Shown one piece after another: positions 7,345 to 28,727 of a stretch of 30,064 bases of DNA. Source of the DNA: a virus. Both the position numbers and the translations under genes were made by a program. The stretch is from IMG/VR virus record IMGVR_UViG_3300036791_000816, positions 1-30,064 of that record; one strand, written 5' to 3'. Within the stretch, counting starts at the first letter, position 1. The number at the start of each line of letters is the position of its first letter. The notes beneath the pieces are model-generated. The model was not told the origin of the DNA. It saw only the letters and a program-made list of their open reading frames with translations, and did no database searches.

Positions 7345-8583
7345 TCACCAGTAATAAACACGCAGCGCCGAAGCGCCGCCGGGACCGACCTTGGCCTGGC
7401 CGGTCGCGGCGATCATCACCTGGGCGTTCTGGCCGGTGGCTGCGGGATCGGGAAACGACAGCTGCACGGCGGCGAGATCGAAAGCATAGCCGCCATCGGC
7501 GTTGCTCGTCGCGAACAGCATGCCGACCGGCGTGGCATCGAGCTTGGCTGGCATGAACGCGTCGTAAGCAGCGTCGGCGAGGTAGATCGAGGCGTCGACG
7601 GTGATCGCGGCGGTGCCCGCGTTGTACCGGGTCGGCGCGGGCTTGCCGAGGCAGTTCTGCGGCGTGTTGCCATTGACCAGCGCGATCTTCATCGATTCGA
7701 TGCAGTAGGCGGTCGGCACGCCCTCGACGGTGACCAGGCCCATATCGATCGAGGCGTTCAGCTGCAGCGCGGTGCCGGCATTGGCGACCGCGCCGCCGGC
7801 GGCGAGGATCTGCTGCGCCATGCTCGGCGCCTCCTGCAGATAGCCATTGGCGAGCAGATTGAACACGCAGGTGACGATCGCGCCGTAGGTGAGCGTGACT
7901 TCGAATCCATTGACGATGCCGCCCGTATAGCGCTGTGAGTGCTCGTCGCTCGAGGCGAGATGGGTCACGTCGGTATAGGCCTTGGAAAAACTCGCGGCGA
8001 TGACGTCGGCGCCGATCTCGACGTAGCTAGGGCCCATGACCGCAACGCCCGCCGGAATCGCGACGACATCGATCGCCTCGCGCTTGGCGGTGATCACCAT
8101 CGCCAGACCGCCGGGATCGAGCGAGACAATCTGCGCGGGCCCATTGTTCGCCTCGTTGGCAAAGCCGGTGACCAGCAAGAGTTCGCCGACCGCAAAGCTG
8201 GTGGCGAGATCGCCCGAGGCGATCGTCACGTCGGCCAATTGCGGATTGCCGCTATCCTTGGTGTAGGCGCCGCCGGACAACGAAACCGGCGCCGTCGCCG
8301 CCTGCGGCGAAGCGTCCATCATCCCCATCTGGAACAATCGCTGGTAGACCTCGTCGGGCGAGAGCTCGCCATTGATCGCGCCGCCGACCGTGAGTCCGGT
8401 AACGATCTGCCCGCCGCTCATCCGGTCGATGCGGTTCTCGGTGCTCGCGACGGTGGTCGGTGTGCCTGAGAGCGTCTCGGTGGTGAAGCGGATCCGCGCC
8501 GCCTGCGCCGCCTCGAGCGGCGGCGTGATGCCATACGTGTCCTCGGGCAGCATCACCAGTTCGACAGCATTGGCGCTCGACAT
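7345..8583 (-). CDS. Major tail tube protein, short paralogue
   Basis: A 412-residue protein that would polymerise into the tail tube. It is close to the N-terminal 412 residues of the long tube protein at 11745-14585, sharing long identical stretches such as FTTETLSGTPTTVASTEN, MSGGQIVTGLTVGGAINGEL and DVTHLASSDEHSQRY. Typical tail-tube features are the LNASIDMGLVTV strand and the late NAQVMIAATGQAKVGP strand. It ends with VYYW, exactly where the long form continues into extra domains. The start is supported by GAGGAGG seven bases upstream. Its place just before the chaperone genes is the normal place of the main tube gene, so this copy is probably the bulk subunit. Confidence 0.88.
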   Translation of the reverse strand: MSSANAVELVMLPEDTYGITPPLEAAQAARIRFTTETLSGTPTTVASTENRIDRMSGGQIVTGLTVGGAINGELSPDEVYQRLFQMGMMDASPQAATAPVSLSGGAYTKDSGNPQLADVTIASGDLATSFAVGELLLVTGFANEANNGPAQIVSLDPGGLAMVITAKREAIDVVAIPAGVAVMGPSYVEIGADVIAASFSKAYTDVTHLASSDEHSQRYTGGIVNGFEVTLTYGAIVTCVFNLLANGYLQEAPSMAQQILAAGGAVANAGTALQLNASIDMGLVTVEGVPTAYCIESMKIALVNGNTPQNCLGKPAPTRYNAGTAAITVDASIYLADAAYDAFMPAKLDATPVGMLFATSNADGGYAFDLAAVQLSFPDPAATGQNAQVMIAATGQAKVGPGGASALRVYYW

Positions 8584-11744: not shown

Positions 11745-14585
11745 TCAGGCAAACAGCGTCTCGAGGTGCGCGCGCAGCGCCGCCTCGGTCGGGCCAAAGG
11801 TGACGTTGTTGGCGATGGCGAAAGCGTAGATGCGGAAATCGGGCGTCTGCGATCCCGGTCCGGTGTCCGCCGCATGGTTGCCGAGCGTCAAGCCATTGAC
11901 CGTGGTGTTGCCAGCCCAGCCGCCGGCGGGCGGCGTGGCGCCATCGGCAGCCAGCCAGGAAGCGCCCGAACCATGGTTTTCAAGAATCGTGTGATTGACG
12001 CCAACCGAGACCGGGCATTCCGTCGAAGGCGCCGCGCCGTCGTAGGTACCGAGATTGGCCGCATCCATCTCGTAGAGCAGGCCCGTCGAGACGCCATCGC
12101 CCGAATGGAACAGCCGGGCGCTGACGCTGGCGACGTTGATCATCAGCGCGCTCATCCGCTGCCAAACGCTGCCGGTGTAGAGTTGCAGCGCCGTGTTCGA
12201 CAGCCGCGAAGCCGGCGAATTGGGCGTCAGCCATTTGAGCACGCCGGTCGCGTCGAGATTGAGAATCCAGTGATCGCCGCCGGTGGGCATCGTCAGGTGA
12301 TTGCCGTGGCCCGAAAGATCATTGACCCGGCGCACCGGATCGCCCTGGGCGGTCGCCGGCACCGTGCCAGCGGTATCCTGGAACACCGCGCCCGCCACCT
12401 TGATCTCATAGCCGGCGGCATATTGCGTATAATCGTAGGGCGGATCGTCGCTCGGATCGTTGATGATCGTCACGTCGATCGCGACCGAATTGCTGACATT
12501 GCCGCCGAGATCGGTGCCGCTGACCGTTGCCGACAGCGATGGCGCGGTCTCGTAATCGGTCAAACCGTCGCCGACCAGGCGCACCATGAAAGAGCTTCCC
12601 GGCTGCATGCCGGCGAACTCGAATGAGCCGCCGTTGGTGCCGGCGAGCGCCGGATAAACGGGTTCGCTGAACGAGACCGGAATCGCGACATGCAGATGCT
12701 CGTTCAACGTCACGCTGCCGCCGCCCGATGCGACCGGCGGCGTGGTGTCGCCCCATTTGAGCACATTCCCGTAGGGGCCAATCGTGCCGCCCGAATTGCG
12801 CCGCAGCGCGACGAACACCTCGCCCGCGCTGGCGGTGATCGCCTCGAGGCCCGGAAACACCAGCGCTCCGCCGTTCCCGGTCGCAACCCAGGCCGAAGTG
12901 AACAGCGGGCTGCTCATATCGAGATTCGGCGAGACCACCACCTGCAGCTGGTCGGTCGACGGGACCAGCGCGAGATCCGCCGACAGTTCGATCGGATAGG
13001 TCGTCTGGGTCGCGGTGGGCGCGATGGCCGGCATCGCCAGCGGCGAGCTCGTACTGGTCACAAACAACGTCAGCGTCGTATCGCGCGGACTGTTGCTGGC
13101 CGAGGCCAGCGTCTCGCGAAGGGTAAACGGCGGAGTGGGCGCGCTGGCAAAGTCGAGCGGCGCGGCGCCCCGCACCACGTTGGTGCCCGACAAAGCGACC
13201 ATGCCGCCAGCGTCGTCGGTCAATGTCAGGCTCGAGCCGCTGCGCTTGCCGAGAATCGCCCCGGCGATGTCGCCCTGCCCGGCAGTGTCGGGCAGCGTGA
13301 ATGTGCCGGTCAAGGCGGCGAGCGTCGCCGGCGGCATCGGCGTCGGCGGCGGTGCGCCCCAATAGTAGACGGTGAGCGCAGAGGGATCGGCGGGCGGTCC
13401 AACTTTGGCCTGGCCGGTCGCTGCAATCATCACCTGGGCGTTCTGGCCGGTCGCGGCGGGATCGGGAAACGACAATTGCACGGCGGGCAGGCGAAACGCA
13501 TAGCCGCCGTCGTCATTGCCCGCCGCGAACAGCATGCCGATCGGCGTGGCATCGAGTTTCGCCGGCATGAACGCGTCGTAAGCACCGTCGGCCAGATAGA
13601 TCGAGGCGTCGACAGTGATCGCGGCGGTGCCCGCATTGTACCGGGTCGGCGCCGGCCTCCCCAGGCAGTTCTGCGGCGTGTTGCCGTTCACCAGCGCGAT
13701 CTTCATCGATTCGATGCAGTAGGCGGTCGGCTGCCCGTCGACGGTGACCAGGCCCATGTCGATCGAGGCGTTCAGCTGCTGGCCGGTGCCGGCGCCCAGG
13801 ACCGCGCCGCCCGCAGCCTCGATCTGCTGCGCCAGGCTCGGCGCCTCCTGCAGATAGCCGTTGGCGAGCAGATTGAACACGCAAGTGACGATCGCGCCAT
13901 AGGTGAGCGTGACTTCAAACCCGTTGACGATGCCGCCCGAATAGCGCTGCGAGTGCTCGTCGCTCGAGGCGAGATGCGTGACGTCGGTGTAGGCTTTGGA
14001 AAAGGTCGCCGAAAACACCTGCGAGCCGATCGCCAGCGAGGCGGGGCGCGTGACCAGGCCGCTCGCGGTGCTGACCTCGTCGACGGCTTGGGTTTTGACC
14101 GCTGCCTGCAGATGGGTTTCGTCGGTGATCGCGGTGATCTGTGCCGGGCCGTTGTTGGCCTCGGTGGGAAAGCCCGAAAGCATCAGCATATCGCCGACAG
14201 CATAGTCGCTCTGGAAGGCCGCGCCGGCGAGCGCGAGCGTGGCGAGTTGCGGGTTGGTTGCGTCCTTGGTCAAAGTGATCGCGCCCGCCGGCTGCGCGAG
14301 CTCGGGCAGCGGCGCGCTCATCATCCCCAGCTGAAATAGATACTGGTAGGCGAGATCGGGCGAGAGCTCGCCATTGATCGCGCCGCCGACCGTGAGCCCG
14401 GTGACGATCTGCCCGCCGCTCATGCGGTCGGTGCGGTTTTCGGTGCTGGCGACCGTCGTCGGTGTGCCGCTCAAGGTTTCGGTGGTGAAGCGGATCGCCT
14501 GAGCGGCGGCGACATCGGGCGCGGGCGTCTGGCCATAAGCGGCCTCGGGCACCAGGATCAGTTCGACAGCATTGGCGCTCGACAT
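11745..14585 (-). CDS. Long tail tube protein with C-terminal Ig-like and lectin-like domains
   Basis: A 946-residue protein starting at ATG 14585 (GAGAGGAA seven bases upstream; the frame extension to 14627 lacks such support). Residues 1-412 are a tail-tube domain highly similar to the short paralogue at 7345-8583. After VYYW comes a Pro-rich linker, then a beta domain (about 420-500) and fibronectin/cadherin-like segments (about 520-725, with SGTDLGGNVSNSVAIDVTI). A final domain (about 735-946) resembles phage LamG/concanavalin-type modules (GAVFQDTAGTVPA, then RRVNDLSGHGNHLTM). Such a protein could be built into the tube and display sugar-binding domains on its surface, as tail-tube Ig domains do in other siphophages. 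That display is inference. Confidence 0.83.
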   Translation of the reverse strand: MSSANAVELILVPEAAYGQTPAPDVAAAQAIRFTTETLSGTPTTVASTENRTDRMSGGQIVTGLTVGGAINGELSPDLAYQYLFQLGMMSAPLPELAQPAGAITLTKDATNPQLATLALAGAAFQSDYAVGDMLMLSGFPTEANNGPAQITAITDETHLQAAVKTQAVDEVSTASGLVTRPASLAIGSQVFSATFSKAYTDVTHLASSDEHSQRYSGGIVNGFEVTLTYGAIVTCVFNLLANGYLQEAPSLAQQIEAAGGAVLGAGTGQQLNASIDMGLVTVDGQPTAYCIESMKIALVNGNTPQNCLGRPAPTRYNAGTAAITVDASIYLADGAYDAFMPAKLDATPIGMLFAAGNDDGGYAFRLPAVQLSFPDPAATGQNAQVMIAATGQAKVGPPADPSALTVYYWGAPPPTPMPPATLAALTGTFTLPDTAGQGDIAGAILGKRSGSSLTLTDDAGGMVALSGTNVVRGAAPLDFASAPTPPFTLRETLASASNSPRDTTLTLFVTSTSSPLAMPAIAPTATQTTYPIELSADLALVPSTDQLQVVVSPNLDMSSPLFTSAWVATGNGGALVFPGLEAITASAGEVFVALRRNSGGTIGPYGNVLKWGDTTPPVASGGGSVTLNEHLHVAIPVSFSEPVYPALAGTNGGSFEFAGMQPGSSFMVRLVGDGLTDYETAPSLSATVSGTDLGGNVSNSVAIDVTIINDPSDDPPYDYTQYAAGYEIKVAGAVFQDTAGTVPATAQGDPVRRVNDLSGHGNHLTMPTGGDHWILNLDATGVLKWLTPNSPASRLSNTALQLYTGSVWQRMSALMINVASVSARLFHSGDGVSTGLLYEMDAANLGTYDGAAPSTECPVSVGVNHTILENHGSGASWLAADGATPPAGGWAGNTTVNGLTLGNHAADTGPGSQTPDFRIYAFAIANNVTFGPTEAALRAHLETLFA

Positions 14586-14598
14586 CTGCCCGTTCCTC

Positions 14599-15030
14599 TC
14601 AAGCGCAGACCACGCTGGTGTAGCCAAGATTCGACGTCCAGCCGTGCCAGCGCCCGCTGATGCGGATCGCGGCGCCCTGGAAGTCCGAGAAATGCTCCAT
14701 GAAATCGATCAGGTAGGATCCCAGGCGCTTGCCCCGAAACATCGAGACCAGCTGCTCGCCATAGGTGAGCGCGCGCGCCGAAGATTCGCCGGTCGGCATC
14801 ACCAGGTGGAAGATGACCACGCCCTGCTCTTCCCACGAATGGTTCTCGATCTGGCCGATCGCCGCCAGCCGCTCGGGGCCGCCGATGAACTGGATCAGCA
14901 GCATCGCGTCGGCATCGCCCTGCGGGATGTCGTCAAAGCTCGCATAATCGGACAGATCGAATACGGGCGTCGCCGTCCAGTTGGCGGCGAGCTCGGCCTT
15001 GATCGCCGCGCGCAGGCCCGGATTGGTCAT
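14599..15030 (-). CDS. Tail terminator protein, DUF4128-like
   Basis: A 143-residue protein; ATG 15030 overlaps the stop of the gp10-like gene (ATGA at 15027-15030). It contains the LRAAIKAELAANW start, VFDLSDYASFDDIP, and a central VVIFHLVMPTGESSARALTYGEQLVSMFRG segment typical of DUF4128/tail terminator proteins. These cap the tail and join it to the head. It sits directly before the tail-tube genes, which fits. Length is close to the usual 130-145 residues. Confidence 0.8.
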   Translation of the reverse strand: MTNPGLRAAIKAELAANWTATPVFDLSDYASFDDIPQGDADAMLLIQFIGGPERLAAIGQIENHSWEEQGVVIFHLVMPTGESSARALTYGEQLVSMFRGKRLGSYLIDFMEHFSDFQGAAIRISGRWHGWTSNLGYTSVVCA

Positions 15031-23814: not shown

Positions 23815-24469
23815 CGTCAGGCGGCAGCAGCGCCTCGATCTCGGCGGTGCGCCGGGCGAGTTCGCGCAGGGCTGCATCGCGCGGCGCGCCGGGTGCTTCG
23901 CGCCAGCATTCCTGCACGAGCAGCGGCATTCCTGAATCGATCGAGGCGCTGACCTCGGCGCGCGTGGCCTCGCGGCCTTCGCACCACCACTCGACCTTGT
24001 GCGGCTCGCCGAGCGCGAACAGGTAGCTGCGGCCCGCGCGGAAGCGCTGGGTCTTGTGCGTCTCGATCCAGACGCAGGCCACGCCGGGATTGCGCCGGAT
24101 GCCGCTCTCGGACCAGTTCACTTCCACCGGCAGTTTGGATTCGGGTATCCTGCCCATTCTCGGTTGCGACAAGAACGGGCAGCGCCGGGCTGAGAAGCGC
24201 GCGCAGTCGACATGGCTCTGCGGCTCGGAAATCGTGCGGGTGATCGCGCACATTGGACCGATCACCGAGGCGCGAATGTTGCCGAGTTTCTCGCCGCAGA
24301 CCCAACACAGATTGAAGGTCTGCGCGCGCTCGATCTTGTCCATGCCGATCACCGGGAACTGCGGCTCGCCGTGCTCGTCCCAATGGACGAACCAGGGCAC
24401 CGGGAAACCGCGATGATCGACGCGCAGCCGGCGCATGCGCTCGGGCAGATCGGGGAAGCGCTCGGTCAT
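23810..24469 (-). CDS. Conserved phage protein with Cys cluster, possible zinc-binding
   Basis: A 219-residue protein starting by ATGA overlap with the IS110-like gene. Cys55 and Cys58 (CWVCG), Cys74 (GPMC), Cys89 and Cys97 (RRCPFL) form a cluster that could bind zinc. Further marks are GIRRNPGVACVWIETH and EWWCEGREATRAEVSASIDSGMPLL. I recall proteins of this type from many proteobacterial phages and genomic islands, always without a known function; I cannot check this here. It may work with the two genes before it (175-aa and IS110-like), as these three are tightly overlapped. Confidence 0.75.
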   Translation of the reverse strand: MTERFPDLPERMRRLRVDHRGFPVPWFVHWDEHGEPQFPVIGMDKIERAQTFNLCWVCGEKLGNIRASVIGPMCAITRTISEPQSHVDCARFSARRCPFLSQPRMGRIPESKLPVEVNWSESGIRRNPGVACVWIETHKTQRFRAGRSYLFALGEPHKVEWWCEGREATRAEVSASIDSGMPLLVQECWREAPGAPRDAALRELARRTAEIEALLPPDD

Positions 24470-25923
24470 GCCGCAAGCTCCTCGCCGGTGTCATCGGAAA
24501 GCGGGCGGCGCGCATAGGGCGGTTGGTCATTCGAGATCCCACAGGCACGCCGCCACGCCTGCCACGCCTGCCGTAGCAGACGCTTTTCCATGTAGCGTTG
24601 AGAATCCCGATGAATGTGCAACGCCGGCCAGGGCGTTTCGCGCTCGGCATTGCGCGCCACTTGCCAGGCCTTACGATCAAGATAGAGCTGCCCAAATTCG
24701 CCGATCGCCCGGCTCTCGCCTTCGATGCGTTTGCCATCCGCATCCTTGGGCGCGCGCAGCTGCTGCTTGAGAATGGCGGTACCGATATTCCACATCAGCG
24801 TGCGGCGTTCGTGCGCATAGCCTTGGATGAGCGCCTCGGCGCCACGCACGCGGCGTTGCCGTTCGCCATTGATGACTGCGAGACCCATGCGTTTCCAGAG
24901 CGCCGCAACGCTGCGATAGGCGCCTGGCCCGATCGCGGTTTCCGCAATCAGGCCGCCGAACGAGATGTCACCGAGACCGCTGATCGCTTTGGCCCAGCTG
25001 TAGATTGGCAGCGCGCCGGCAAGCTTGGCGATTGTCCGATCGAGATCCCGCTGCGCCGATTGGAGCGGCTCGATGGCTGCGAGAAACGGCCCAAGCCAAC
25101 CGCGCAACGAATGGACCGGATCCGCTTTGACCTCATCCCAGAGCTTTTGCCCCCTGTCCTTGTCGCCATCGCACAAGCGACGGCAGACCGCCTGCGCCTG
25201 GTTGCCGAGCCGAACGCGGGCGCGGACCATGTCCTGCCGCAGCCGCCATTGCTCGATCAGCGCGGCGAGCAGATCGTTCCCGGCGGCAGGTTTCCCATGG
25301 GCAGCGGCCTGTTGCTGGCCGCCGGGAACAGGGTGGGCGCGCGCCTCCGTGGTGGAGAGCGATTTTTTCATGGCGCGCCCGATGGGTTTCCCGGCGGCTG
25401 TACCTGGATGGGCAGCGTGCTCGAACTGGCCGCCGGGAACGGGGTGGGCGCGCGTCGCTCCTTTGGGTGCCGAGCCTAGACTGGCGCGCCCGATGGGTTT
25501 CCCGGCGGCGCTGTCTCGGGGGGCATCGTGTTGGGCCTGGCCGCCGGGATCAGGGTGGGCGCGCGTCTGTCGCTTGGGGGACGAATCTTTCTTGGCGCGC
25601 CCGATGGGTTTCCCGGCGGCGGAGTTTCCATGGGCGTCGGACAGGTGCTGGCCGCCGGGATCAGGGTGGGCGCGCGAGTGGAACGTGGTCGGCGTTTGGG
25701 ACTTGGCGCGCCCGATGGGATTCCCGGCGGCGGCGTTCCCGTGGGCATCGGGCTGGCGATGGCCGCCGGGAACAGGGTGGGCGCGCGTCTCTCGATCGGG
25801 AGGCGGAATTTTTCTGGCGCGCCCTAACTTCGGGCGGTGCAGGCAGTTTCCGGGTTCCGCAGACAACTTGGCACCGCCCTCCAGCGCCGCAATTGCGGCG
25901 GGAATCCAGGGTTCATTCGGCAT
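24466..25923 (-). CDS. IS110-type transposase-domain protein lacking the nuclease domain, with repeat array in its N-terminal part
   Basis: A 485-residue protein starting at ATG 25923 (GAGGAG six bases upstream, 11-bp overlap with the previous gene). Residues 34-216 are repeats of 37 residues, each with RAHPxPGG[QH] and AAGKPIGRA blocks. After a helical part (LLAALIEQWRLRQDMVRARVRL), residues 305-375 resemble the C-terminal Transposase_20 domain of IS110 enzymes: AISGLGDISFGGLIAE, then YRSVAALWKRMGLAV and a Gly/Arg-rich loop. The C-terminus has HRDSQRYMEKRLLRQAW. The N-terminal DEDD RuvC-like domain of IS110 is missing, and no clear catalytic Ser is seen after GLAV, where Asn-Gly-Glu-Arg follows. 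Thus probably not a normal transposase; perhaps a nucleic-acid-binding protein. No IS ends are visible. Confidence 0.75.
   Translation of the reverse strand: MPNEPWIPAAIAALEGGAKLSAEPGNCLHRPKLGRARKIPPPDRETRAHPVPGGHRQPDAHGNAAAGNPIGRAKSQTPTTFHSRAHPDPGGQHLSDAHGNSAAGKPIGRAKKDSSPKRQTRAHPDPGGQAQHDAPRDSAAGKPIGRASLGSAPKGATRAHPVPGGQFEHAAHPGTAAGKPIGRAMKKSLSTTEARAHPVPGGQQQAAAHGKPAAGNDLLAALIEQWRLRQDMVRARVRLGNQAQAVCRRLCDGDKDRGQKLWDEVKADPVHSLRGWLGPFLAAIEPLQSAQRDLDRTIAKLAGALPIYSWAKAISGLGDISFGGLIAETAIGPGAYRSVAALWKRMGLAVINGERQRRVRGAEALIQGYAHERRTLMWNIGTAILKQQLRAPKDADGKRIEGESRAIGEFGQLYLDRKAWQVARNAERETPWPALHIHRDSQRYMEKRLLRQAWQAWRRACGISNDQPPYARRPLSDDTGEELAA
25277..25824. repeat. Array of alternating inverted 28-bp repeats with 27-28-bp variable segments
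   Basis: Period 111 bp. Each unit has a left block (full copies at 25371-25398, 25482-25509, 25593-25620, 25704-25731; partial at 25815-25824 and 25277-25287) and a right block (25316-25343, 25427-25454, 25538-25565, 25649-25676, 25760-25787). Left contains GGCGCGCCC and TTCCCGGCGGC; right contains GCCGCCGGGA and GGGCGCGC, so they are inverted relative to each other. Between them lie variable segments of exactly 28 nt (left-right) and 27 nt (right-left). Across copies the blocks differ at only three positions, two of them changing the amino acid. The array is in frame in the IS110-like gene (37 codons per unit). Confidence 0.9.
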
Positions 25924-26440
25924 CGCGCGTCTCCTCAAACAGCTGCTCGAGCGCCTTGAGCGTGAGCGCGGTCTCGCACTTGTTATGCCGTCCAACCCGC
26001 TCGGCGACCTTGGCCAACCAGCGCGCGCGATGGCCGAGCGTCTGCGCGCTCTGGCCATATTCGTCGGCAGCGCGCGCGATCTCCTCGCGGTTCGCTGATC
26101 CCAGCCGTTTGCCGCCGGGCAACGGGAAATCGAACAGGCTCATGGCGATGACCGATCGCAACCGCGCGCCGCCCTGCTCGAGATCGGGCGTCAGCGATGC
26201 GGTGCGCAATGTGCTCAGATGATGGCGGATCTGTTCGCGGCACCAGTCCTGCAAGATTCGCGGCAGCAATGCGCCGAGCAGCACTGAATCTTTGGCCAGC
26301 GTGGCATAGAGCTTCCCGGCAGCTGCCGGCACATCGCCTTCGCATTGTTGCCAGGCCTCGCGAATGTACTCGGCGGCAACCGGCGCGTCGGGATTCTCTG
26401 GCGCGGGCTGCGGCGATTCGGTCTTCGGGCTTTCAGGCAT
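25913..26440 (-). CDS. Conserved hypothetical phage protein
   Basis: A 175-residue protein. Two ATGs lie six bases apart; 26440 is preferred because AAGGAG is seven bases before it, but only one base before ATG 26446. A Pro/Glu-rich start is followed by helices (EYIREAWQQCEGDVPAAAGKLYATLAKD, LQDWCREQIRHHL) and a distinctive stretch SLFDFPLPGGKRLGSANREEI, then QTLGHRARWLAKVAERV. I associate this pattern with a helical protein found next to IS110-like genes in phages, but have no function for it. It overlaps both neighbours and probably acts with them. Confidence 0.75.
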   Translation of the reverse strand: MPESPKTESPQPAPENPDAPVAAEYIREAWQQCEGDVPAAAGKLYATLAKDSVLLGALLPRILQDWCREQIRHHLSTLRTASLTPDLEQGGARLRSVIAMSLFDFPLPGGKRLGSANREEIARAADEYGQSAQTLGHRARWLAKVAERVGRHNKCETALTLKALEQLFEETRDAE

Positions 26441-26615
26441 GGCCATGCTCCTTCGATGGGAATTGCGGATCGGGCGGCATCATACGCAATGTCACCCGAG
26501 CGACAGGCCAGCCGTGATCATGAATTTCGCTGATCAGCATCACCAAGTCGAAGTCATCGAGCGCGCGAATCTTCGCGATCTCCTCTGGCATCACATGCTG
26601 GTTATCGCCGATCAT
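26433..26615 (-). CDS. Small hypothetical protein
   Basis: A 60-residue protein with start ATG 26615 fixed by the ATGA overlap with the preceding gene (26612-26615). The longer open frame to 26696 would overlap that gene out of frame. One helix-strand pattern is visible (EEIAKIRALDDFDLVMLISEIHDH, then WPVARVTLRMMP). No motif recognised. Confidence 0.6.
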   Translation of the reverse strand: MIGDNQHVMPEEIAKIRALDDFDLVMLISEIHDHGWPVARVTLRMMPPDPQFPSKEHGHA

Positions 26616-27464: not shown

Positions 27465-27916
27465 GACCCACCGTCCCGCGCCGCCATCACCGCATCGTAA
27501 AGCTCGTCGAGAATCTTGGCCTCGGCCAGGGTTTCGGCGGCCTTCTGGTGCTTGTAGTTGCGAGCACTATCGAGCCATTCGGGATTGTCGATCAGGGTCG
27601 CGACATGGATGTGTTCATCCAGTTCGGGAACGTAGTGCAGATCGCCTTGCAGGCGCGAAACAATCGTGCGGAAGCCTTCGGCAATCTCGGCGAAATCACC
27701 CTGACCGGGATCATGCTTCGCTTTGATGTGACTCTTGACGGCGCCGGCCACGCCTGCGCGAAACATCTTGTCCGCGCCTTCGCGTTCGGCGGCATCGACG
27801 GTTTCGGGGAAGGCAACGCCGATCACCTTGTCGGTGATGGCTGCCGGGTTTGCGCCGACAGCGGCCCGTGCCAAATTAACCAGATCGTAGAAATGGGCCA
27901 GCTTGTCAGTCAACAT
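27461..27916 (-). CDS. Hypothetical protein
   Basis: A 151-residue, mostly helical protein. ATG 27916 has GGAGAG about six bases upstream and overlaps the ParB-like stop by 11 bp; the open frame up to 28039 is not needed. Segments: KLAHFYDLVNLARAAVGANPAAITDKVIG, DAAEREGADKMFRAGVAGAVKSHIKA and a C-terminal AAETLAEAKILDELYDAVMAA. I do not recognise it. Its neighbours are the ParB-like gene and the acidic protein. Confidence 0.65.
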   Translation of the reverse strand: MLTDKLAHFYDLVNLARAAVGANPAAITDKVIGVAFPETVDAAEREGADKMFRAGVAGAVKSHIKAKHDPGQGDFAEIAEGFRTIVSRLQGDLHYVPELDEHIHVATLIDNPEWLDSARNYKHQKAAETLAEAKILDELYDAVMAARDGGS

Positions 27917-28727
27917 CGGCTCTCTCCAATACGAGGGTGAGAAAATCGCGCGCACGGCGAATATAGGCGAGCGAGCGCAGGCGTTGGGCGGCATCGAGAA
28001 AGGCCCCCAGGATCGTGACAATCTCGATCTCGCCGGCATCGACTTGCGTCATCAGCTGGCGGCAAGGGCTGACCACGTTGAGCAGCATGCGAAAAGCCGG
28101 GTCATCGACGTACGTGGGATTGCGGTTGGCGCGGCGCGGTGCCCGGCAACCTTTGAGACCCCATTCCGCCGCCGCGATGACCGCCTCGCGCATCGCGCGC
28201 TTGTCCTCGAGATTGATCTCGCACTGTTGGTCTTTGGGCAGGCCGGCGAGCGCGGCGGCGACGGAAACCGGGACGGTGCCGTGATCAACGGCGGCGACCA
28301 GTTCGGGAATGCCCTCGCGCTGAACCGTGCGAGCGCTGGCAACAGCCCGCGTGCTCACGTTGAGCAGTTCGGCAGCTTCGGCGCGCGAGGTTGTGCAAAT
28401 TTGCACATGCTGATTGTCGCCCCGTTCCATCGTCGCCAGCCGCGCCGCGACCATCGCGCGCTGGCTTTCGCTCAGGTGCCGCCGGTGCAGATTGGTGCTC
28501 ACCACGAAGGCGACCGGGTCGCTGCCAGTGAAGGTCTCGAAGCGCGGCGCGATTCCGGCCTCCTCGCAAGCGCGCAGCCGGTTGCGCCCGTCGAGCACCG
28601 CTTCGCCCGCGAGCGTGATGGGCTGGATCAAGCCATGGGCGCGGATATCCTCGACCAGGTCGGCAAAGGCGCTGCCCTCGAGCAGCGGAAATGCAGTTGC
28701 TGCCGGATGAATATCGAGCGCGTTCAT
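27906..28727 (-). CDS. ParB-like DNA-binding / nuclease-domain protein
   Basis: A 273-residue protein. Residues 12-85 form a ParB N-terminal domain: FADLVEDIRAHGLIQPITL, then VLDGRNRLRACEEAGI and VVSTNLHRRHLSESQRAMVAARLA, the standard order. Residues 113-140 look like a helix-turn-helix (SRAEAAELLNVSTRAVASARTV). The C-terminal part is helical with RRANRNPTY and a helical end. Such phage proteins can bind DNA, act as CTPases or nick DNA, or regulate transcription. No ParA partner is seen, so partition is less likely than regulation. It overlaps the preceding gene by ATGA. Confidence 0.88.
   Translation of the reverse strand: MNALDIHPAATAFPLLEGSAFADLVEDIRAHGLIQPITLAGEAVLDGRNRLRACEEAGIAPRFETFTGSDPVAFVVSTNLHRRHLSESQRAMVAARLATMERGDNQHVQICTTSRAEAAELLNVSTRAVASARTVQREGIPELVAAVDHGTVPVSVAAALAGLPKDQQCEINLEDKRAMREAVIAAAEWGLKGCRAPRRANRNPTYVDDPAFRMLLNVVSPCRQLMTQVDAGEIEIVTILGAFLDAAQRLRSLAYIRRARDFLTLVLERADVD

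Follow-up and report, generated by a model that had tools for sequence, protein, structure and literature searches.

A phage locus of probable stem-loop TIGR-Tas type with its hairpin array inside the tasA reading frame

The locus, its protein and its array

The window analysed here (30,064 nucleotides (nt), positions 1 to 30,064 of IMG/VR virus record IMGVR_UViG_3300036791_000816) is a phage contig whose minus strand carries head, portal and tail genes. An open reading frame (ORF) on this strand encodes a protein related to the Tas family and contains eleven tandem hairpins. An earlier note, made from the sequence alone, had placed an array of inverted repeats in frame within this ORF, which stands, and had called the gene an IS110-domain gene. 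The best explanation, and a very probable one, is that the phage carries a TIGR-Tas system with a stem-loop array, in which TasA lacks a nuclease and the whole array lies in the tasA frame. The features of the locus are the following.

24466 to 25923, minus strand: tasA-like gene, 485 amino acids (ORF with a Shine-Dalgarno sequence; best phmmer, hmmsearch and Foldseek matches TasR 9MTY and TasH)
24511 to 25296, minus strand: Nop (TasA) domain with a coiled coil (AlphaFold residues 209-470, mostly pLDDT >88)
25275 to 25879, minus strand: TIGR stem-loop array of 11 predicted hairpins in the tasA frame (motif scan; RNA fold z = -7.1)
25913 to 26446, minus strand: conserved partner gene, 177 amino acids, predicted all-helical, with relatives beside tasA; it precedes tasA and is translationally coupled to it

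The tasA gene starts at ATG 25923, which overlaps the TGA stop of the upstream partner gene and is preceded by the Shine-Dalgarno sequence GAGGAG (25936-25931). No Pfam family matched its product, with no IS110 at E<0.1, and the PHROG label is "transposase". Against the PDB, phmmer found TasR 9MTY (E 9e-7), and a 25-sequence profile used with hmmsearch recovered only 9MTY (E 1e-26) and TasH (E 7e-13). AlphaFold2 predicts a confident all-helical domain at residues 209-470 and a disordered, array-coded N-terminal tail (pLDDT 32-47). Ranked by Z in Foldseek/VIA, the closest structures are TasR (17.8) and TasH (15.7-16.6), followed by IS621/ISCro4 (about 13) and archaeal Nop5 (about 8), and by these profile matches and Z scores the domain belongs to the Tas-family Nop domains. 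No RuvC/DEDD catalytic domain was found; the array encodes most of the first 208 residues, which are predicted to be disordered and have no Pfam match. Because it has no nuclease domain, the product is, on sequence and structural model, a nuclease-free Nop-domain TasA.

A repeat search detected a 111-nt direct-repeat unit present five times within the minus-strand ORF, with inverted arms of 12-18 nt. On the gene-sense strand each unit contains two hairpins, type 1 (GGGCGCGC-loop-GCGCGCCC, with a stem of 8 base pairs (bp)) and type 2 ((TGT)TCCCGGCGGC-loop-GCCGCCGGGA(A)). The stems alternate between 8 bp and 10-13 bp, and each closes a loop of the form CA-N9-CG-N4-CCA-N9-Y (2+9+2+4+3+9+1, exactly 30 nt), with CCA as box C, CG as box D and two 9-nt spacers. 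A strict form of this motif (CCA-N9-NG-N4-CCA-N9-NG, stem of at least 6 bp) occurs eight times on the minus strand and not at all on the plus strand, with 0.05 expected, so that the repeats are not a product of chance. The span first reported (25277-25824) does hold the array, with ten hairpins once 1-nt box variants are allowed, but misses an eleventh with its own stem just outside it (hairpin 1 below; loop 25870-25841). In the fold originally proposed, each pair of blocks forms a single long stem interrupted by a 6x7 internal loop; separate hairpins with stems of 8 bp or 10-13 bp fit better.

Hairpin 1, 25832 to 25879, minus strand: own stem GGGCGGTGC; spacers AGTTGTCTG / GAAACTGCC
Hairpin 2, 25779 to 25824, minus strand: type 1, 8 bp, GGGCGCGC; spacers GAAAAATTC / ATCGAGAGA; box C' CCG
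Hairpin 3, 25720 to 25773, minus strand: type 2, 12 bp; spacers TCGCCAGCC / CGGGAACGC
Hairpin 4, 25668 to 25713, minus strand: type 1; spacers AGTCCCAAA / CGTTCCACT
Hairpin 5, 25611 to 25660, minus strand: type 2; spacers GCACCTGTC / TGGAAACTC
Hairpin 6, 25557 to 25602, minus strand: type 1; spacers AGAAAGATT / AGCGACAGA
Hairpin 7, 25500 to 25549, minus strand: type 2; spacers GGCCCAACA / CCGAGACAG; box C' CCC
Hairpin 8, 25446 to 25491, minus strand: type 1; spacers GTCTAGGCT / AAGGAGCGA
Hairpin 9, 25388 to 25439, minus strand: type 2; spacers GTTCGAGCA / TCCAGGTAC
Hairpin 10, 25335 to 25380, minus strand: type 1; spacers TGAAAAAAT / CCACGGAGG
Hairpin 11, 25275 to 25330, minus strand: type 2, 13 bp; spacers GCAACAGGC / TGGGAAACC

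Covariance models of 4227 Rfam families gave no match to the array up to E 1, and no match to a DNA consensus of the window's stem turned up in other viral contigs. The array also lacks the plan of a CRISPR-Cas locus, with alternating inverted arms and split 9-nt spacers in place of direct repeats and 25-36-nt spacers, and no Pfam cas match was found among the ten neighbouring genes scanned.

Hairpins in relatives, the reading frame and spacer turnover

The first relatives found through the C-terminal domain, L002 (IMG/VR), Rhizobium phage RHph_X2_25 and Gordonia phage Morrissey, have different stems and the same 30-nt loops. Hairpins of this kind occur in 39 of 43 relatives (non-redundant loci), always on the tas-sense strand. 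The family loop reads CA-N9-YG-N4-CCA-N9-Y, with the closing stem pair completing CCA with its C and YG with its G, and in a logo of 313 loops (the 43 non-redundant loci and a few duplicates) the boxes CA, YG, CCA and Y are nearly invariant while the two 9-nt spacers are flat. The same geometry emerges from a motif-free count near tas genes that required at least 9 Watson-Crick pairs, with 171 hairpins having a loop of exactly 30 nt versus about 3 (range 0-10) for other lengths. The loop motif is found 311 times in sense and 9 times in antisense to tas, never in antisense with a stem of at least 6 bp. Stem positions 2-10 are paired in 71-93% of motif-first instances versus 38-77% in re-paired-flank controls (38-46% from position 4 onward), and every Watson-Crick pair type is present among the covarying stems. 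Arrays in relatives lie upstream of, inside or downstream of tas, with mixed loci joining both forms. Some guide hairpins lie inside the Nop-domain coding sequence and not in the N-terminal tail (L028 at 3863 and 3977, L035 at 3722, L036 at 3605, L065 at 2909 and 2972), and several relatives have a further one at the 3' end of the tasA coding sequence (L002 2092-2133, L006 4226-4255). Four Nop-domain relatives, L023, L027, L034 and L049, have neither 30-nt-loop hairpins nor the partner gene and may use another RNA or none.

The window's array sits at the tas locus, but within the tas frame and not beside it. This arrangement is shared by 20 of the 39 hairpin-bearing loci, in which 85 hairpins fall within the N-terminal coding part after a Shine-Dalgarno-bearing start, and in the Gordonia phage LonelyBoi the GenBank coding sequence of gp46 covers five N-terminal hairpins. 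The N-terminal length grows by 20 residues per hairpin, the equivalent of one hairpin (rho 0.87). A count of zero stops in the tas frame was dropped; the loci had been chosen for an open frame and the result was therefore partly built in, so an unbiased test of the upstream frame was used instead. Across 35 loci, the tas frame is open upstream of the domain for a median of 360 nt; the medians of the two other frames are 83 nt (p 5e-7) and 76 nt (p 1e-6). Between L011 and L012, whose TasA proteins are 97% identical, all gaps in the array-coded part are multiples of 3, including a 66-nt insertion that adds a whole extra hairpin and keeps the frame. The in-frame state changes about 10 times on the TasA tree, and arrays therefore enter and leave the frame repeatedly. 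From these sequence patterns, the array is probably translated as the N-terminal part of TasA.

The rival that survives best accepts functional tigRNAs but takes the open frame to be incidental, with TasA started inside or after the array. Open frames come cheaply in a GC-rich region and several long ones cross the array; some relatives have later start codons, and the array-coded segment is predicted to be disordered. Against this, there is no in-frame ATG, GTG or TTG between the last hairpin and the domain in 13 loci (the window and 12 others), and the upstream ATG has a strong Shine-Dalgarno sequence. The far longer opening of the tas frame and the preservation of frame by every L011/L012 indel also run counter to it, and we regard an incidental frame as unlikely.

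Spacers turn over much faster than the structures that hold them. Among 45 pairs of hairpins that come from one locus and have almost the same stems, the spacers share 31%. The eight orthologous hairpins of L011 and L012 are 96% identical in stems, 92% in boxes and 26% in spacers, which is the chance level, with the domain DNA at 89%. The window's five-fold unit is present once in its nearest relative, L006, and the window's spacers have diverged since. Where the earlier note would have given up an RNA role (stems kept only as protein, no covariation, a constant copy number), we found covariation, an extra hairpin and spacer turnover.

The mycobacteriophage array region, matched in 74 records (Fromanvirus), shows how spacers may be exchanged. 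In these phages the partner gene accompanies the array and tasA, and tasA is annotated as "transposase", "HTH" or hypothetical. We compared ten of them (L063, L064 and L066-L073: Euphoria, Buttons, Anglerfish, Rufus, ConceptII, Forsytheast, Bob3, Altman, Corvo and Pelly). Their flanks and stems are nearly identical, and the spacer pairs behave as recombining alleles, with six alleles of hairpin 1 and five of hairpin 4 seen in eight combinations. Rufus, for instance, shares hairpin 1 with Buttons and hairpins 4-5 with Euphoria, and Pelly shares hairpin 1 with ConceptII and hairpin 4 with Buttons. The simplest reading is that spacers would be exchanged by recombination with the stems as borders.

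These data also bear on two readings raised in the earlier note, both of which fit worse in view of the covarying stems, the strand-specific motif and the predicted disorder of the array-coded peptide. One, binding sites of the encoded protein, is taken here together with replication iterons as a DNA element, like phage origins within initiator genes. Inverted repeats inside the gene of a nucleic-acid-binding protein would suit it, as would the replication genes near some relatives, but stem sequences vary freely between hairpins yet stay paired, the loop keeps a length of 30 nt, spacers are not conserved even where the proteins are 97% identical, and the encoded protein is a Tas protein; we consider it very improbable. 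The other, a purely protein-level repeat (diversity-generating or a repeat protein) whose DNA likeness reflects recent duplication, can point to a unit of 37 codons and to the resemblance of hairpins 2-11 to a five-fold amplified two-hairpin unit that is single in L006. It is hardly credible given that the geometry is kept in non-coding arrays (the mycobacteriophages, L010/L014) and that the encoded tail is unconserved in sequence.

Partner gene and relation to known systems

Of the 39 loci with an array, 37 have a relative of the partner gene beside tasA, whereas the four Nop homologues that lack an array have none (Fisher p 1e-4); in L016 the gene is downstream of tasA. Partner profiles built without close relatives still recover each member (E 5e-10 to 5e-37). 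The window's protein matched neither a Pfam family nor a PHROG; PHROG 4604, which takes in nine members, is of unknown function. AlphaFold predicts a helical fold (pLDDT 88) for which Foldseek found nothing significant in the PDB. The partner is a candidate, and a likely one, for a second component of stem-loop TIGR systems. In the main text of the TIGR-Tas paper (PMC12045711), such systems are described as generally a single protein and an array, and the partner gene is unmentioned there; the supplementary files could show the partner or in-ORF arrays.

On protein and array anatomy, as judged from sequence and structural model, the locus is a member of the stem-loop TIGR-Tas systems with TasA. 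That paper describes TasR boxes CCA (C) and UG (D) with 9-nt spacers, and TasA systems with stem-loop arrays. The described stem-loop example (Faure et al. 2025, PMC12045711; a Peromyscus gut contig) shares, as far as the main text goes, a nuclease-free Nop TasA, hairpins in tandem, a pair of 9-nt spacers set between box C (CCA) and box D, and palindromic stems that vary from unit to unit. Compared with that account, the window has its own array in the tasA frame, fixed 30-nt loop, partner gene beside tasA, box D that is mostly CG, and two alternating stems amplified five-fold. The dual-repeat TIGR-TasR/TasH systems (PDB 9MTY, 9W03, 21KL) have a homologous Nop domain and the same box C/D and tandem 9-nt spacer geometry, whereas the window lacks a nuclease domain and has hairpin stems in place of edge repeats. 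Box C/D small nucleolar ribonucleoproteins (Nop5/Nop56/58) share a distant Nop fold and the box C/D guide logic, but the window's target is presumed to be DNA and it has no L7Ae, fibrillarin or K-turn. CRISPR arrays likewise combine repeats with variable spacers; those of the window are split into 9+9 nt in hairpin loops and appear to be replaced within hairpins, not added at a leader end.

The earlier suggestion of kinship with bridge RNA holds in part. IS110/IS621 with its bridge RNA has a related RNA-binding Nop fold and a guide pair reading both DNA strands, comparable to the dual-spacer hairpins here, and the PHROG label lends the IS110 name a loose fit. Because there is no RuvC/DEDD domain, however, the RNA is not a bridge RNA and the protein is not an IS110 transposase; the window also lacks transposon ends and has many single-unit guides. 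Descent as a relic of an IS110-type bridge-RNA/recombinase, for which the label and the fold kinship with IS621 could be cited, is most improbable, with solved Tas proteins closer in sequence and structure than IS110 and with tandem single-unit hairpins in place of one two-loop RNA.

Proposed mechanism and guide targets

If the locus works as a stem-loop TIGR-Tas system, the operon transcript would fold into 11 hairpins, each loop presenting two 9-nt spacers, A and B, with box C (CCA) and box D (YG) as their anchors. By analogy with published stem-loop tigRNAs, a cellular RNase assisted by TasA could release single hairpins, and one guide would be bound per TasA dimer. At an adjoining DNA target, one spacer would pair with each strand, and TasA, guided by RNA, would therefore bind DNA to block, bend or regulate it and not to cut it. 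As the array lies within the tasA frame, one RNA would serve as both TasA mRNA and guide precursor; guide excision would remove the tasA start region and would thereby make the amounts self-limiting.

A bolder proposal, which we hold at slightly below an even chance, is a two-protein TIGR system whose guide array is also effector coding sequence. Guide maturation would destroy the mRNA as a feedback, the tail would tolerate any spacer, the partner would act in guide processing, loading or spacer exchange, and spacer pairs would be swapped hairpin-wise between co-infecting phages. The in-frame array, the partner gene and the hairpin-wise exchange of spacers are the new parts.

Target searches used a form that we derived from the cut geometry given in the published account (8-nt 3' overhangs, cleavage 5' of the nucleotide paired to spacer base 5), namely a top strand of A, 0-2 nt and the reverse complement of B. 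An initial apparent excess of self-targets consisted of matches within the guide's own hairpin. Self-targets in own loci (A with the reverse complement of B, or the reverse complement of A with B, gap 0-2, up to 3 mismatches) showed no excess over swapped spacers. Cross-locus targets with up to 2 mismatches numbered 12, against 21-26 in swapped-spacer controls, with none above control; this rarity of guide matches to other TIGR loci is possibly avoidance, possibly noise. Four window guides had 0, 2, 0 and 3 matches in viral contigs, at or below a rough chance level of about 4 each (about 45 Gb assumed); the two of one guide are from one lineage, in a DnaB-type helicase gene. Exact ungapped 18-mers from all 11 window guides gave no match in 50,697 phage records, with a positive-control 18-mer found at E 2 in a 42-nt query; two 90-nt queries place such a match nearer the E 10 limit, which makes the negative weaker for them. 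The matches of variable segments to phage sequence anticipated in the earlier note thus did not exceed chance.

Several observations count against a stem-loop TIGR-Tas assignment with an in-frame array. Searches of the loci themselves, of related loci and of phage and viral sequence yielded no guide target. Box C' has a one-base change in 2 of the 11 hairpins, with CCG also in hairpin 1, and box D is CG in the window, not UG, TG being the minority form in the family. The stem-loop array in the main text of PMC12045711 stands outside the gene, and GC-rich hairpins may make translation inefficient.

Two further features concern neighbouring genes. A ParB-like gene (27906-28727, minus strand; PHROG 4715, E 1e-14) runs in the same operon direction and lies upstream of the partner gene at a distance of about 1.5 kb; in dual-repeat loci, the TIGR-Tas paper (PMC12045711) reports tasParB adjoining tasA. 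A tail protein gene is present in two related copies on the minus strand (7345-8583 and 11745-14627), both in PHROG 290; the second copy is extended by a long C-terminal part.

When TIGR-Tas was described in 2025, its natural targets, the evolution of its arrays and any accessory proteins were unknown. The window led to guide arrays that overlap their effector's own coding sequence and to a conserved partner gene. Over 70 mycobacteriophages with sequenced genomes share a laboratory host, and their arrays differ mainly in spacers, shuffled hairpin by hairpin. This variation makes TIGR array evolution and the hunt for targets testable in Mycobacterium smegmatis, and with them the turnover of guides.
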